Assembly (NCBI RefSeq): GCF_040436315.1
Contig: NZ_AP031572.1
Span: 2,108,001-2,172,000 of the forward strand
Length of the DNA: 64,000 bases
Origin: Synechocystis sp. LKSZ1
Lineage (GTDB): Bacteria > Cyanobacteriota > Cyanobacteriia > Cyanobacteriales > Microcystaceae
Direction of reading: 5' to 3'
Shown here: piece after piece, positions 55,683 through 63,580 of the stretch
How the letters are laid out: each line of letters opens with the position of its first letter
Position numbering within the stretch: the first letter of the stretch is position 1
Position numbers and translations under genes: made by a program
The notes under the pieces: model-generated
The model's input: only the letters and a program-made list of their open reading frames with translations
Told to the model about the DNA's origin: nothing
Databases searched by the model: none

Positions 55683-55750
55683 AGAGCTTTTCGGTTTTTT
55701 AAATGCTAGAGGCCTGAACATCATCTAGACCTTTTACCTACCACCACGCT

Positions 55751-55788
55751 CAAGCGGGTTAGGATAGAGTCATCGTCGGAGTCCAATA
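55751..55788 (+). repeat. Conserved 38-bp leader of tandem copy 1
   Basis: CAAGCGGGTTAGGATAG followed by a block ending CCAATA sits directly before the ATG of copy 1. The same 38-bp block, with four differences, precedes copy 2 (56208-56245) and copy 3 (56714-56751) at the same distance, so each copy carries its own 5' region. TAGGAT could be a -10 element. I see no good -35. Confidence 0.7.
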
Positions 55789-56175
55789 ATGCCAGACTTT
55801 CAGACCTTTATCACTATCCTGACGGCCCTGTTGGTCTTTCTTCTAGGGATTTTCCTGAAATATGATACCCTCTACCTCAGAAACTACCAAATCCACTTCC
55901 CCCAATGGGCCGGCCTCGTCCTCGCCGGGGCTACTTTCTCGCTTGTGGTCTTGGATCAACTCCTACGGGGGTTTGTCCGACTTGAGGAGATACAACGCCG
56001 AGATGAGGAAGAGCAACGAAGAATTAAGCAAGCAGAACGCGAGACTCGCCGAACTCGAATCGAAACTCGATATCGTATTGCAGTTATCCGATACCAACTC
56101 GACCCCAGTGACCTCCACCGACGACAACTAGCCGATTTACTGGCCCTGCTCCAGGAATACCAAGATACGCTCTAG
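55789..56175 (+). CDS. Tandem small membrane protein, copy 1 (frame one)
   Basis: A 128-residue protein of a family I do not recognise. Hydrophobic segments near 5-24 (QTFITILTALLVFLLGIFLK) and 38-58 (WAGLVLAGATFSLVVLDQLL) make a hairpin, and an Arg/Glu-rich tail ends in RRQLADLLALLQEYQDTL. After a G5 tract (55967-55971) a second frame stays open and encodes a coiled coil. Dropping one G would fuse the two helices to it. Whether frame one, the fused frame or both are made is unknown. The 3' end of frame one, beyond the frame-two stop, varies only synonymously between copies 1-3. Confidence 0.6.
   Translation: MPDFQTFITILTALLVFLLGIFLKYDTLYLRNYQIHFPQWAGLVLAGATFSLVVLDQLLRGFVRLEEIQRRDEEEQRRIKQAERETRRTRIETRYRIAVIRYQLDPSDLHRRQLADLLALLQEYQDTL
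55973..56131 (+). other. Second open frame of copy 1 (coiled-coil tail)
   Basis: From the G5 tract the +1 frame reads LSDLRRYNAEMRKSNEE, then LSKQNARLAELESKLDIVL, and ends in a Ser/Thr-rich STDDN tail. Hydrophobic residues recur with 3-4 spacing as in a parallel coiled coil. Fusion to the upstream membrane hairpin by skipping one base would give a protein of about 113 residues. See copy 4 for evidence that this frame has been under selection. Confidence 0.45.
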
Positions 56176-56207
56176 GCCTATCTGTATTTGTCGATTTCTT
56201 CTTTACT

Positions 56208-56245
56208 CAAGCGGGTTAGGATAGGGCCATCGTCGGAATTCAATA
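56208..56245 (+). repeat. Conserved 38-bp leader of tandem copy 2
   Basis: The same block as before copy 1 (CAAGCGGGTTAGGATAG start), 38 bp upstream of the ATG. It marks the unit boundary of the tandem repeat and probably a promoter or leader for each copy. Confidence 0.7.
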
Positions 56246-56686
56246 ATGCCAGACTTTCAGACTTTTATTACTATCCTGACGGCCCTGTTGGTCTTTCTTC
56301 TCGGGATTTTCCTGAAATATGACACCCTCTACCTCAGAAACTACCAAATCCACTTCCCCCAATGGGCCGGCCTCGTCCTCGCCGGGGCTACTTTCTCGCT
56401 TGTGGTCTTGGATCAACTCCTACGGGGGTTTGTCCGACTTGAGGAAATACAATGCCGAGATGAGGAAGCTCGACGAAAAGATGAGGAAGCTCGACGAAGA
56501 GAAGAGGATGCAGTACGAGCAAAGAATGAGCGCCTTGAGACAGCAGAACGCGAGACTCGCCGAACTCGAATCGAAACTCGATATCGTATTGCGCTCCTCC
56601 AATTCCAACTCGACCCCAGCGGCCTCCACCGACGACAATTAGCCGATCTGCTGGCCCTGCTTCAGGAATACCAAGATACGCTTTAG
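56246..56686 (+). CDS. Tandem small membrane protein, copy 2 (frame one)
   Basis: 146 residues, with the same membrane hairpin as copy 1 and an 18-residue longer charged tail. The G5 tract lies at 56424-56428. In frame one the tail reads EEARRKDEEARRREED. In frame two the same bases give MRKLDEK MRKLDEE, two exact heptads (21-nt DNA repeats) with Met and Leu at the a and d positions. An upstream Cys replaces Arg in frame one (IQCRDEE). It is flanked by the conserved 38-bp leader on its 5' side and by the leader of copy 3 on its 3' side. Confidence 0.6.
   Translation: MPDFQTFITILTALLVFLLGIFLKYDTLYLRNYQIHFPQWAGLVLAGATFSLVVLDQLLRGFVRLEEIQCRDEEARRKDEEARRREEDAVRAKNERLETAERETRRTRIETRYRIALLQFQLDPSGLHRRQLADLLALLQEYQDTL
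56430..56642 (+). other. Second open frame of copy 2 (heptad coiled coil)
   Basis: The +1 frame after the G5 tract encodes LSDLRKYNAEMRKLDEKM, further heptads, MSALRQQNARLAELESKLD and a Ser/Asn-rich end STDDN. All codons remain sense although the heptad region has expanded relative to copy 1. Confidence 0.45.
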
Positions 56687-56713
56687 TCCAGCAGGGCCTA
56701 TTTCTTCTTTACT

Positions 56714-56751
56714 CAAGCGGGTTAGGATAGGGCCATCGTCGGAATTCAATA
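56714..56751 (+). repeat. Conserved 38-bp leader of tandem copy 3
   Basis: Identical in sequence to the leader of copy 2 and at the same 38-bp distance to the ATG. Confidence 0.7.
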
Positions 56752-57300
56752 ATGCCAGACTTTCAGACCTTTATTACTATCCTGACGGCCTTACTGGTCT
56801 TTCTTCTCGGGATTTTCCTGAAATATGACACCCTCTACCTCAGAAACTACCAAATCCACTTCCCCCAATGGGCCGGCCTCCTCCTCGCCGGGGCTACTTT
56901 CTCGCTTGTGGTCTTGGATCAACTCCTACGGGGGTTTGTCCGACTTGAGGAGATACAACGCCGAGATGAGGAGACTCAACGAAGAGAGCAGGAAAATCGA
57001 CGAAAGGATGAGGAAGCTCGACGAAGAGAACGAGAAATACTACGAAGAGAGGAGGAAGAGGCTCGACAAAGAGAAGAGGACATTCGACGCCGAGATGAGA
57101 AGGCTAGACGAAGAGAACAGGATGCAATACGAGCAAAGAATGAGCGCCTTGAGACAGCAGAACGCGAGACTCGCCGAACTCGAATCGAAACTCGATATCG
57201 TATTGCAGTTATCCGATACCAACTCGACCCCAGCAACCTCCACCGACGACAACTAGCGGATCTACTGGCCCTGCTCCAGGAATACCAAGATACGCTTTGA
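56752..57300 (+). CDS. Tandem small membrane protein, copy 3 (frame one)
   Basis: 182 residues, the longest copy. Membrane hairpin as in copies 1 and 2 with one Val-to-Leu change, G5 tract at 56930-56934, then about 105 residues that are almost only Arg, Glu, Asp, Gln and Ala, ending in HRRQLADLLALLQEYQDTL. The extra 36 residues relative to copy 2 come from more purine-rich repeat units. In frame two the same region reads as consecutive heptads. This copy ends the array; the next 290 bp are promoter DNA for the PilX-like gene. Confidence 0.6.
   Translation: MPDFQTFITILTALLVFLLGIFLKYDTLYLRNYQIHFPQWAGLLLAGATFSLVVLDQLLRGFVRLEEIQRRDEETQRREQENRRKDEEARRREREILRREEEEARQREEDIRRRDEKARRREQDAIRAKNERLETAERETRRTRIETRYRIAVIRYQLDPSNLHRRQLADLLALLQEYQDTL
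56936..57256 (+). other. Second open frame of copy 3 (long heptad coiled coil)
   Basis: Frame two gives LSDLRRYNAEMRRLNEES, then RKIDER MRKLDEE and related heptads, a Tyr-containing block, MRRLDEENRMQYEQRM, and the common end MSALRQQNARLAELESKLD...STDDN. The frame is open for more than 100 codons and forms a far better coiled coil than frame one. Confidence 0.45.
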
Positions 57301-57593
57301 TGGGCCAACTCAACCGAAATATCCTCCTGCTGTCATTTCTCCAGCAAGTATCAAGCACTCAAAACTTTTAGGGCCAGCCTTGCTTTGTAGCCGTTTTGTC
57401 TTGGGCCAAAACAGTGGCCGACCTCCATGAAAAACAACCCTTTTCCTAATATTTTCCAGGCCTTAAAGCCAGGGCCTGTTCTCATGGTGATCTAGATCAC
57501 AGAGGCTGACGATCCCTGGAAGTTAGAATAGAGGTATTCCCGAAACTGGGTCTAAAATTTTGTTGTTTGAGTGATTTAGGCGGGAGTAAAGTC
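57301..57593 (+). promoter_or_regulatory. Promoter region of the first PilX-like gene with CRP-type site
   Basis: The site GGTGA-TCTAGA-TCACA at 57486-57501 differs by one base from the CRP/SyCRP1 consensus TGTGA-N6-TCACA. TAGAAT at 57524-57529 can serve as -10, placing the site centre about 42 bp upstream of the start, a class II activator position. The block ATTTTCCAGGCCTTAAAGCC just before the site (57451-57470) recurs before the second PilX-like gene. No gene is seen in this stretch. Confidence 0.65.
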
Positions 57594-59231
57594 ATGAATG
57601 CTCGATTCAGTTATTTGTGGTTGCGTTATTTAAATACTAAACGCCAGGGCGGGTTTGCCATGATGATAGCAATCGTCTTGGGCCTAGTAATGCTCGTAGT
57701 TGGTGTGACCCTATTGGTGCAATCCAGCGGCAATCAAACTAAAACTATTTCTAAAGCAAAATCTGATAAGGCTTTCAGTATTGCAGAGGCTGGGGCGACT
57801 CAATATGTTGATTTCTTAAATAAAAAAGCGAATCGTATCTTGCTCTCTTTCGATGACTGTGTTGCGACTAGAGATGCAAATGGTAGCTGTCCTGATAGTG
57901 GGACGGGGACAAAAAGCTGGTCTTTAGCCGACAATATTCTGACCGCTGTATCCAATCTACAAGGGGGTAATGCCTGTACTAATGCAACAGGAAGCACAGC
58001 GGTTTCAACCATTCAAACGTGGGCTAATGCCAACAATACTACGGGGTGGCGAACCATTGGCGATGGTCGCTTTAAGTTAGTGGGTTATAAATACACTCCA
58101 GATGGAGCGGCCAATAGTGTACCAGGGACAGCGGTATTGGCAGTTCAGGGTATCAATGGCACTACAGGAACTGCTGATAGTGCGAATGGCGGTACTCAAG
58201 TTCAAATGACGCTACGAATTAATTCAAACCCTAGTAGTACGCCTCCCATCCCTCAGTCCGCCCCCGGTCTTTGGGCCAGAAGTTTTAGCACAGCCGCTGA
58301 TATCCATGCCAATGTCTTAGATAGCTCTGGTTGTACCAGTGGAAATACACCTGTCAGTAGTAGTCTATTAAACTATCTCCCCTCGCTTCCCTTGGGAACC
58401 CTCCCCAACGGGAACCATACCCCAGCCCTATCAGGCACAATGGGTCAATTAGTGAAGGAAACTAATGGTACTCCCTTTCCTCCCTTGCCCTATTATCCTG
58501 CAACAGCCGATGCTAACACCAATACCTTAAGCAACTGTAGCGGAAAAACAGCCTACCCCGCTAATGGTGACAAGGATGCAGACGGTAATACTTTTAATTC
58601 CAGTTCTCCTCCGGGCACAGGAAAAGTTTATAAGTATCGCATTACAGGCGGGTGTACGCTTCCTAGCGGAGTCACGTTTGGCAGTCGTGGTGATGATCGT
58701 GTCATCATGTACATTGATAGCACTCTTGACATTGGTAATAATGCCAAAGTTGCTACCAGTGGTGGCACCCAAGCCAAAGTTCAATGGCTTTTGAGAACTT
58801 CAGATTTAGATTTAGGGGGGAATTCTCAGGTGGGTAGTGCCTCACCGGATGCCTCTACTGCTACAAACTGGTCGTTCTTCCTATACAGTTGTACGGATGT
58901 TGCCTGCACCTCAAGAAAGAGTTCACCAGAAGTGAGTCTGCGAGGAACATCTGACTATTACGCCTTTATTTTTGCGCCCTATGCAACAGCTGATATGCGA
59001 GGTAACCCCAAAATAGCGGGTGCCCTTTGGGTCAATCGCTTCGAGACGAATGGCTCTCCGCCGAAAATCTTTCAAGCGATGCAACAAAACGACTTTAATC
59101 AACTATTCTCCGGTGTTTACAGCGACACGGGCACAGATGTTTCTTTGCTACAGAATGGTTATATTGGTAATACCGTTGCTTTCAATAAAACCAGCTTTAA
59201 TGCTTCTGTCGTCCCGGTTGCGGCTCCCTAG
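57594..59231 (+). CDS. PilX-like surface/minor pilin-type protein, copy A
   Basis: A 545-residue protein. A basic N-terminus (about 1-20) precedes GGFAMMIAIVLGLVMLVVGVTLLV near 19-42, a pilin-like membrane helix. Then NQTKTISKAKSDKAFSIAEAGATQ near 48-70 matches the PilX N-terminal pattern (AEAG). The prepilin-type Glu at +5 is absent. The rest is Ser/Thr/Asn/Gly-rich beta-type sequence with several cysteines. In other bacteria PilX-type proteins sit in type IV pili. ATG 57594 has a GGGAG binding site; a TTG at 57567 is less likely. It is almost identical to copy B. Confidence 0.8.
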   Translation: MNARFSYLWLRYLNTKRQGGFAMMIAIVLGLVMLVVGVTLLVQSSGNQTKTISKAKSDKAFSIAEAGATQYVDFLNKKANRILLSFDDCVATRDANGSCPDSGTGTKSWSLADNILTAVSNLQGGNACTNATGSTAVSTIQTWANANNTTGWRTIGDGRFKLVGYKYTPDGAANSVPGTAVLAVQGINGTTGTADSANGGTQVQMTLRINSNPSSTPPIPQSAPGLWARSFSTAADIHANVLDSSGCTSGNTPVSSSLLNYLPSLPLGTLPNGNHTPALSGTMGQLVKETNGTPFPPLPYYPATADANTNTLSNCSGKTAYPANGDKDADGNTFNSSSPPGTGKVYKYRITGGCTLPSGVTFGSRGDDRVIMYIDSTLDIGNNAKVATSGGTQAKVQWLLRTSDLDLGGNSQVGSASPDASTATNWSFFLYSCTDVACTSRKSSPEVSLRGTSDYYAFIFAPYATADMRGNPKIAGALWVNRFETNGSPPKIFQAMQQNDFNQLFSGVYSDTGTDVSLLQNGYIGNTVAFNKTSFNASVVPVAAP

Positions 59232-59406: not shown

Positions 59407-61425
59407 ATGAATCCTCGGTTTGGTTATGCGTGGTTACGTCATCTGAATAGCAATCGTCAGCGTGGTTTTGCCATGCCTATAGCGATTATGCTAGGTCTAG
59501 TCATGCTTGTAGTCGGTGTGACCCTATTGGTGCAATCCAGCGGCAATCAAACTAAAACCATTTCTAAAGCAAAATCTGATAAGGCTTTCAGTATTGCAGA
59601 GGCTGGGGCGACTCAATATATTGATTTCTTAAATAAAAGAGCGAATCGTATCTTGCTCTCTTTCGATGACTGTGTTGCGACTAGAGATGCAAATGGTAGC
59701 TGTCCTGATAGTGGGACGGGGACAAAAAGCTGGTCTTTAGCCGACAATATTCTGACCGCTGTATCCAATCTGCAAGGGGGCAATGCCTGTACTAATGCAA
59801 CGGGAAGCACGGCGGTTTCAACCATTCAAACGTGGGCTAATGCCAACAATACTACGGGGTGGCGAACCATCGGCGATGGTCGTTTCAAGCTAGTAGGTTA
59901 TAAATACACTCCAGACGGAGCGGCCAATAGTGTACCAGGGACAGCAGTATTGGCAGTTCAGGGTATCAATGGCACTACAGGAACTGCTGATAGTGCGAAT
60001 GGCGGTACTCAAGTTCAAATGACGCTACGAATTAATTCAAACCCTAGTAGTACACCTCCAATCCCTCAGTCCGCCCCTGGTCTTTGGGCCAGAAGTTTTA
60101 GCACAGCCGCTGATATCCATGCCAATGTCTTAGATAGCTCTGGTTGTACCAGTGGAAATACCCCTGTCAGTAGTAGCCTATTGAACTATCTCCCCTCGCT
60201 TCCCTTGGGAACCCTCCCCAACGGAAACCATACCCCAGCCCTATCAGGCACAATGGGTCAATTAGTGAAGGAAACTAATGGTACTCCCTTTCCTCCCTTG
60301 CCCTATTATCCTGCAACAGCCGATGCTAATACCAATACCTTAAGCAACTGTAGCGGAAAAACAGCCTACCCCGCTAATGGTGACAAGGATGCAGACGGTA
60401 ATACTTTTAATTCCAGTTCTCCTCCGGGCACAGGAAAAGTTTATAAGTATCGCATTACAGGCGGGTGTACGCTTCCTAGCGGAGTCACGTTTGGCAGTCG
60501 TGGTGATGATCGTGTCATCATGTACATTGATAGCACTCTTGACATTGGTAATAATGCCAAAGTTGCTACCAGTGGTGGCACCCAAGCCAAAGTTCAATGG
60601 CTTTTGAGAACTTCAGATTTAGATTTAGGGGGGAATTCTCAGGTGGGTAGTGCCTCACCGGATGCCTCTACTGCTACAAACTGGTCGTTCTTCCTATACA
60701 GTTGTACGGATGTTGCCTGCACCTCAAGAAAGAGTTCACCAGAAGTGAGTCTGCGAGGAACCTCCGACTATTACGCCTTTATTTTTGCGCCCTATGCAAC
60801 AGCCGATATGCGAGGTAACCCCAAAATAGCGGGTGCCCTTTGGGTTAATCGCTTCGAGACGAATGGCGCTCCGCCGAAAATCTTTCAAGCGATGCAACAA
60901 AGCGACTTTAATCAACTATTCTCTGGTCTTTATAGCGACACTGGCACGGATGTTTCGTTGCTACAGAATGGTTATATTGGTAATACCGTTGCTTTCAATA
61001 AAACCAGCTTTGATGCTTCCGTTGTAGCGGTTGCGGCTCCTACCAGTTCTTCTAGCTCTAGTTCAAGCTCGGTGGCATCAAGTTCATCTTCCAGTTCTGT
61101 TGCTTCTGGCTCTAGTTCTAGCTCAGTGACATCAAGTTCTAGTTCCTCTAGTGTTTCCTCCTCCAGTAGTTCTAGCTCTTCTAGTTCCTCGTCTTCCAGT
61201 AGTTCTAGTTCTTCAGTTGCGACGTGTACAGTGCCTAGTTTAGTGGGTAGAGCTACTAACAACTCCAGCCGGGTTTCAGGTATTGCAACATTGGTTACTG
61301 ACGCTGGTTTGGTTCCTTCGCCGAGCTTGACGAATAGTGGCAATCGAGAAGTGCAATCCCAAAATCCTTCTGCGAATGCCTCCGTTCCTTGCGGCAGTAC
61401 GGTTTCTTATGTATTGAACGACTAG
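59407..61425 (+). CDS. PilX-like protein copy B with poly-serine linker and PASTA domain
   Basis: 672 residues. Residues 1-20 differ from copy A, while the helix GFAMPIAIMLGLVMLVVG and the following 500 residues are nearly identical. After the point where copy A ends (VAAP), copy B continues with a linker of about 60 residues that is over 80% serine with a few Val, Ala, Thr and Gly. A C-terminal PASTA-like domain follows (CTVPSLVGRA near 607, DAGLVPSPSL near 637, VQSQNPSANASVPCGSTVSYVL to the end) with two cysteines placed for a disulfide. PASTA domains bind wall fragments or act as spacers. The serine codons are mixed (AGC, TCT, AGT, TCA). A surface role is inferred. Confidence 0.82.
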   Translation: MNPRFGYAWLRHLNSNRQRGFAMPIAIMLGLVMLVVGVTLLVQSSGNQTKTISKAKSDKAFSIAEAGATQYIDFLNKRANRILLSFDDCVATRDANGSCPDSGTGTKSWSLADNILTAVSNLQGGNACTNATGSTAVSTIQTWANANNTTGWRTIGDGRFKLVGYKYTPDGAANSVPGTAVLAVQGINGTTGTADSANGGTQVQMTLRINSNPSSTPPIPQSAPGLWARSFSTAADIHANVLDSSGCTSGNTPVSSSLLNYLPSLPLGTLPNGNHTPALSGTMGQLVKETNGTPFPPLPYYPATADANTNTLSNCSGKTAYPANGDKDADGNTFNSSSPPGTGKVYKYRITGGCTLPSGVTFGSRGDDRVIMYIDSTLDIGNNAKVATSGGTQAKVQWLLRTSDLDLGGNSQVGSASPDASTATNWSFFLYSCTDVACTSRKSSPEVSLRGTSDYYAFIFAPYATADMRGNPKIAGALWVNRFETNGAPPKIFQAMQQSDFNQLFSGLYSDTGTDVSLLQNGYIGNTVAFNKTSFDASVVAVAAPTSSSSSSSSSVASSSSSSSVASGSSSSSVTSSSSSSSVSSSSSSSSSSSSSSSSSSSSVATCTVPSLVGRATNNSSRVSGIATLVTDAGLVPSPSLTNSGNREVQSQNPSANASVPCGSTVSYVLND

Positions 61426-63042: not shown

Positions 63043-63249
63043 ATAAATCAGTCCAATAACTATTTTCAAGCCTAACCTCAGTAATAAACCCAGGCATAAC
63101 TACTTAACAAGATTTAACGCTCAACTAGTTCAAAATATTAGATCAATAATTGACTTATCTATCCTTATATTTATCTTTTCAAGAAAATCTTAAGCTTTTT
63201 TCGGATATTATAATAAATAATGAAATCATCCTTTTGGGGCATCATTGTT

Positions 63250-63580
63250 CTGATGGCTCTGTAGTTTTTCTTTTAGGAATTTTCCTGAAATATGACACCC
63301 TCCAAGCTAGAAATGGCTACATCCACTTCCTCCAATGGATTTTTCTCTTCCTCACCGGGACTACTTTCTCGCTTGCTTGGGAACTTAGATCAACATCTAC
63401 GGAGGCGTGTCCGACTTGAGGAAAAGCAACGAAGAATTAAGCAAGCAGAATGCAAGGCTCGCCGAACTTGAATCAAAACTCGATATCGTATTCCAATCAT
63501 CCAATACCAACTCGACCTCAGTGGCCCCACTGATAACAATTAGCCGCTCTGCTGGGCCTGCTCTAAATTTTGTCGTACCG
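63250..63580 (+). pseudogene. Decayed fourth copy of the tandem membrane protein family
   Basis: Clear DNA similarity to copies 1-3: LGIFLKYDTLQARNGYIHFLQW is followed by FSLAWELR, then frame loss, and SDLRKSNEELSKQNARLAEL followed by ESKLDIVFQSS in the coiled-coil frame. A 1-base deletion near 63265, a 4-base insertion near 63380 and a 1-base deletion near 63530 break it, and a TGA interrupts frame one in the tail. The G tract is changed to GGAGG. One heptad of copy 1 is missing. The leader block of the other copies is not recognisable. Its 3' end runs into the mdh gene on the other strand. Confidence 0.75.

Follow-up and report, generated by a model that had tools for sequence, protein, structure and literature searches.

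Conserved double reading is, to our knowledge, very rare in cellular as opposed to viral genes. In a survey of same-strand overlaps in 338 cellular genomes, no co-directional overlap longer than 60 bp proved real, the longest real one being the 56 bp of holD/rimI, and long same-strand overlaps in such genomes were put down nearly always to erroneous annotation (Palleja et al. 2008, PMC2478687). The bacterial overlapping genes that have been accepted tend toward narrow groups (PMC9927249). Two described systems resemble the locus analyzed here in layout. In phage lambda, the gene for the coiled-coil membrane protein Rz encloses a second gene, Rz1, in another frame of the same strand, and Rz1 is an outer-membrane lipoprotein (PMC6139136). 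In the Rpn genes-within-genes toxin-antitoxin (TA) systems, one locus yields two products, the inner being an in-frame C-terminal part of the outer, and the number of helical repeats varies between copies (PMC10327210).

The window, the 64,000-nucleotide stretch of DNA analyzed here, sits in a complete 3.67-Mb cyanobacterial genome. As the initial annotation had reported, it contains three tandem ORFs of 128, 146 and 182 codons (55789-56175, 56246-56686 and 56752-57300), whose tails have expanded by 54 and then 108 bases. In each copy this outer frame (F1) encodes a hairpin of two transmembrane (TM) segments followed by an Arg/Glu/Ala-rich helix. A second frame (F2) lies wholly inside F1 on the same strand, at +1, and starts from an ATG of its own within the loop of the hairpin (55862, 56319 and 56825). 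The initial annotation had recognized this frame as open for 52, 71 and 107 codons after the hairpin; it is open at +1, but counted from its ATG it is longer, at 89, 107 and 143 aa. The features are as follows.

55737..55788, 56194-56245 and 56700-56751, + strand: leader repeat preceding each copy (direct repeat D1).
55789..56175, + strand: copy 1 F1, 128 aa, two-TM hairpin, charged helical rod and conserved C-terminal helix (ORF, family profile, homologues).
55856..55864, + strand: TGA AAT ATG of copy 1, upstream in-frame stop and F2 start codon (sequence; other copies alike).
55862..56131, + strand: copy 1 F2, nested at +1, 89 aa, S/T/P-rich N-terminus, Trp-containing helix and coiled coil (ORF, profile, homologues).
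56246..56686, + strand: copy 2 F1, 146 aa (ORF, AlphaFold model).
56319..56642, + strand: copy 2 F2, 107 aa (ORF, AlphaFold model).
56429..56611, + strand: rod codons of copy 2 F1 (residues 62-122), nearly coincident with the F2 rod (residues 38-96, 56430-56606; separate structure predictions).
56752..57300, + strand: copy 3 F1, 182 aa, longest rod (ORF).
56825..57256, + strand: copy 3 F2, 143 aa, longest coiled coil (ORF).
About 63220..63545, + strand: fourth copy, decayed, with stops and indels interrupting F1 and one indel interrupting F2.

Because the leader, about 50 bases 5' of each F1, is repeated with every copy, the duplicated unit brings its own 5' region. The decayed fourth copy is flanked by a mannosyltransferase-like gene and a lactate/malate dehydrogenase gene. 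Directly 3' of the array there is a second tandem duplication (57567-59231 and 59407-61425), whose largely identical proteins have a pilin-like N-terminus, as judged by eye, and match DUF7305; the protein of 59407-61425 has an additional C-terminal domain and a poly-Ser stretch. The genes adjoining the array within the window are unrelated to it and include no phage or prophage lysis cassette, and a scan for promoters and terminators gave only chance-level hits.

The survey and this locus both concern same-strand cellular overlaps, but the F1/F2 overlap covers at least 270 bp in each copy of the window and is widely conserved (PMC2478687). The likeness to Rz/Rz1 ends at the layout: a lipobox was found in 0 of 128 F2 proteins, and 110 F2 proteins have no Cys at all (PMC6139136). 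F1 is modeled as a two-helix hairpin instead of one N-terminal TM segment with a periplasmic coil, and the pair is cellular and multicopy, with no phage or viral-contig relatives. We thus rejected an embedded spanin pair, whose defining lipoprotein, single TM segment and phage setting are all missing. An Rpn-type gene within a gene was likewise set aside, since F2 is read at +1 and the two proteins are unrelated (PMC10327210). Among the Pfam and NCBIfam matches listed with a curated cut-off, none of the scanned members reached it, the matches being generic coils or weak, and literature searches, within the library covered, found no description of an F1/F2 family, in agreement with the view of the initial annotation that no such family had been described. 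One candidate, the sll1863 family stress protein (NF052504), was rejected: F2 of copy 2 scores 25.6 bits (E 1.1e-5) against a curated cut-off of 35, and the profile matches 1 of 63 members only, in the coil region alone.

Within the window the case for F2 is limited. The initial annotation had drawn attention to both frames staying open while the tail grew. They do, but this openness is within chance: with the F1 protein held fixed and its synonymous codons reshuffled, the probability that the F2 tail remains open is 0.15-0.35 by codon-usage resampling and 0.05-0.25 by permutation. Tail openness was therefore dropped as proof of F2, and it is the one observation that speaks for F1 being the sole gene, with F2 open by chance in purine-rich, stop-poor repeats of three-base step. 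By the same procedure the whole F2 span stays open with P = 0.017-0.028 (resampling) or 0.026-0.093 (permutation) per copy. Changes between the copies past the F2 stop are all synonymous in F1, as had been noted, and so are those 5' of the F2 start. Inside the overlap, comparison of the three copies gave no clear constraint, with 19 of 38 pairwise changes altering both proteins, because the copies are too alike; the proof rests on homologues.

Homologues with a single open frame, which the initial annotation had named as evidence against a second gene, are few. Of the distinct F1 ORFs that are intact in the fetched loci, 136/140 keep F2 open for at least 70 codons, and F1 is open across 127/148 intact F2 ORFs; these homologues are related to each other, so the counts are not independent, and start codons were chosen by rule. 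In an earlier cut, the F2 profile matched a partner for every F1 ORF (146/146), and the median open length of the third frame was 42 codons. A profile search of 390 cyanobacterial genomes found F2 in 60, F1 in 61 and both in 59, scanning named genomes yielded 70 loci, each under a cyanobacterial record title, and an F1 protein search recovered relatives in the genus, the family and the order. Plasmid, phage and viral collections, including viral contigs, yielded no relatives.

The F2 protein follows a recognizable pattern: M, an S/T/P-rich stretch, a Trp helix (W..LISALSG or W.INSYGG), a coil and NERLA.LESKLD. Distant homologues, including the five-copy array L052 and the same-genome paralogue L048, keep this pattern despite having little F1 similarity to the window copies, and the F2 profile is conserved among members only 20-40% identical. 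In a midpoint-rooted F1 tree the deepest fork separates copies of the window genome, all of them dual-coding, and the double reading thus predates that duplication. In one group (L114, L117, L124, L127, L134, L136 and relatives) F2 ends earlier and has no C-terminal tail, its stop lying about 86-92 bases before the F1 stop, as compared to 38-47 elsewhere. No neighboring gene accompanies the pair constantly across loci; genes that look like DUF29, Uma2 and Rpn, named by eye, recur near a few loci, and one orthologous group lies near an ABC transporter gene. The DUF29-like genes are close to the nested pair at L012, L059, L065, L084, L096, L098 and L141, in different genomes.

Selection was assessed on disjoint homologue pairs by simple site counting modeled on OLGenie (PMC7531306), not by OLGenie itself. 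At a mean identity of 0.84, third positions of F1 diverge by 0.136 within the overlap, by 0.404 before it and by 0.500 after it, about a 3-fold reduction for which the F1-only stretches serve as an internal control. An unconstrained second frame was the other observation that the initial annotation had held would count against F2, and both frames prove to be under purifying selection: for F2, dNN/dNS is 0.36 (0.31-0.41) and dSN/dSS is 0.25 (0.16-0.37), and for F1, dNN/dSN is 0.39 and dNS/dSS is 0.27, with synonymous classes reaching saturation in pairs of greatest divergence. By sub-region, F2 constraint peaks in the Trp helix (dNN/dNS 0.11-0.18) and all but disappears 3' of the overlap (0.79-0.82). 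This ratio has a background, because values moderately under 1 (0.44-0.57) also occur in the F1-only N-terminal stretch.

Codon choice gave the clearest of the tests. Before GA, the wobble base of F2 E/K/Q codons is A in 245/256 cases (96%), which gives F1 Arg and not Gly; before AA it is G in 292/310, which gives F1 Glu and not Lys. The pattern is absent from flanking control genes, where A makes up 58% (before GA) and 75% (before AA) in the same contexts. The silent A/G choice of F2 mostly also favors F1 Ala over Thr. Conversely, the CGR codons of F1 Arg are CGA in 609 cases and CGG in 12, CGA giving F2 Glu/Asp and not Gly. The silent codons of each frame are set by the amino acids of the other. 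Over all loci, F1 past residue 70 consists of 22% Arg and 1% Lys, as though F2 dictated its composition, and the F2 N-terminus is 58% S/T/P, as though F1 dictated that.

The start of F2 is also marked. Stops closely 5' of the F2 ATG are common across the family, and the Arg codon just 5' of the F2 start is AGG in 48/105 cases, as compared to 7/195 at other F1-only sites. AGG at this position yields GAGG a few bases 5' of the ATG; where CTG or TTG precedes it, a stop in the F2 frame arises there as well. Either outcome marks where F2 starts, and this Shine-Dalgarno-like choice lends indirect support to both proteins being made. In the window copies the position is Lys and the GAGG motif is missing.

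These results bear on the reading that F2 is open by chance. Over 28 dissimilar homologues, mostly collected with F2 intact, the whole F2 span was open in 28, against 0.7 (codon usage) or 5.3 (permutation) expected, and F2 constraint, codon reciprocity, the conserved F2 start and the F2 profile all contradict chance, which we regard as extremely improbable. Silent sites of F1 could instead be held by an RNA structure or a regulatory element, which would likewise lower third-position divergence. Such an element leaves unexplained why F2-silent changes are better tolerated (dNS above dNN), why Gly is avoided in both frames, why the F2 profile is kept at only 20-40% identity and why F2 survives where F1 is broken; we consider it extremely improbable. 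Programmed frameshifting, which would join the F1 hairpin to the F2 coil in one protein, has natural counterparts in L148:2230-2775 (+) and L140:2407-2892 (+), where the F1 frame runs, probably via a frameshift, into an F2-like coil past the hairpin, so that both are natural hairpin-plus-F2 fusions. Frameshifting is nevertheless very unlikely to account for the family, because F2 is conserved 5' of the rod, with its strongest constraint in the Trp helix, because F2 has its own ATG, often with a close upstream stop and a Shine-Dalgarno-like motif, and because the F1 C-terminus past the F2 stop is itself conserved. The locus is thus almost certainly a same-strand nested gene pair with dual coding. 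The two real coding frames that the initial annotation had proposed are supported, more strongly than the window alone allows, by homologue conservation and selection, and by sequence F1 and F2 appear to belong among same-strand dual-coding genes, both frames being open, conserved and under purifying selection.

Structure predictions for copy 2, with F1 and F2 folded separately as single chains, gave for F1 helices at residues 4-24, 40-122 and 126-145 with a loop between the first two (mean pLDDT 84), and for F2 a disordered N-terminus followed by helices at 24-34 and 38-96 (rod pLDDT mostly 93-98). The frames are offset by 24 codons, so that F1 residue 62, where the second TM segment ends, lines up with F2 residue 38, and F1 residue 120 with F2 residue 96. 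The DNA of this TM segment codes the F2 Trp helix and that of the F1 rod codes the F2 coil, and the predicted rods therefore start and end at nearly the same codons, a coincidence that is partly automatic once both frames are helical, because the DNA is shared. Pro and Gly together make up 0.9% and 0.5% of the two rods, as compared to 16% of the third frame, which also has many stops, and opposite-charge pairs at i,i+3 and i,i+4 are strongly enriched in both rods. Hydropathy identified two TM segments in 87/128 F1 proteins at a lenient threshold and in 36 at a strict one. A fold search of the PDB returned no significant hit for F1 (best E 1.6) and no match for F2. F2 coils take lengths spaced by 3.5 residues (R = 0.75, n = 54; R = 0.76, n = 15), and rod lengths vary in half-heptad steps that preserve helical phase at both ends, whereas the reading frame alone would permit a change by any whole number of codons. 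Hydrophobic periodicity at 3.5 residues was dropped as evidence, since the third frame shows the same (2.87) because the DNA repeats.

We propose that F1 is a hairpin protein of the membrane in which the second TM helix continues directly as a long charged helix, and that F2 would be a soluble protein, made from its own start in the F1 hairpin loop, with a disordered S/T/P-rich N-terminus, a Trp helix and a coil. Both would be translated, and their rods, presumably cytoplasmic, may pair alongside each other as they extend out from the membrane, forming a helical bundle tethered to it, and the overlap would be maintained because any change in rod length shifts both partners by an equal number of residues. 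That the pair is dual coding and that its rods are also paired, length-matched and membrane-tethered is, taken as a whole, slightly better than an even proposition. More tentatively, at somewhat below even chances, the overlap may itself be the mechanism, the shared bases forcing two interacting helices to equal length and register in every copy.

Loss of one frame is asymmetric: F1 is broken with F2 intact in 21/148 loci, and F2 is broken with F1 intact in 4/140, although the two measures are defined differently and a profile-coverage count of broken frames is blurred by the clade with the shorter F2 C-terminus. A strict obligate pair does not predict the 21 loci. Greater loss of F1 would suit the main rival to paired rods, a nested TA-like pair in which F1 is holin-like and harmful alone, F2 is a coiled-coil neutralizer and nesting keeps the two together. 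Class II holins are membrane-permeabilizing proteins with two TM segments and a charged C-terminus. F1 topology fits this class, but its match to a PHROG holin reaches only E 0.005, alongside a weak match to a PHROG spanin (E 9e-4). The patchy distribution (60/390 genomes), the high and variable copy number, the tandem arrays and the decayed copies would also suit a TA-like pair. The family search gave no convincing TA or defense match, only weak coil-type ones, and neutralization offers no reason for matched rods. We consider a TA-like pair unlikely and favor paired rods.

Since neither product reaches the cut-off of an existing family, at least one of F1 and F2 is probably absent from most annotations. 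The finding is a fully nested, multicopy family in about 15% of the sampled cyanobacterial genomes, spread over many families, with reciprocal codon constraint, and its well over a hundred members form a natural set for studying two proteins evolving in one sequence. If the proposed role of the overlap is true, the shared DNA would be a genetic ruler common to two proteins, whose rods vary in half-heptad steps and would never be mismatched.
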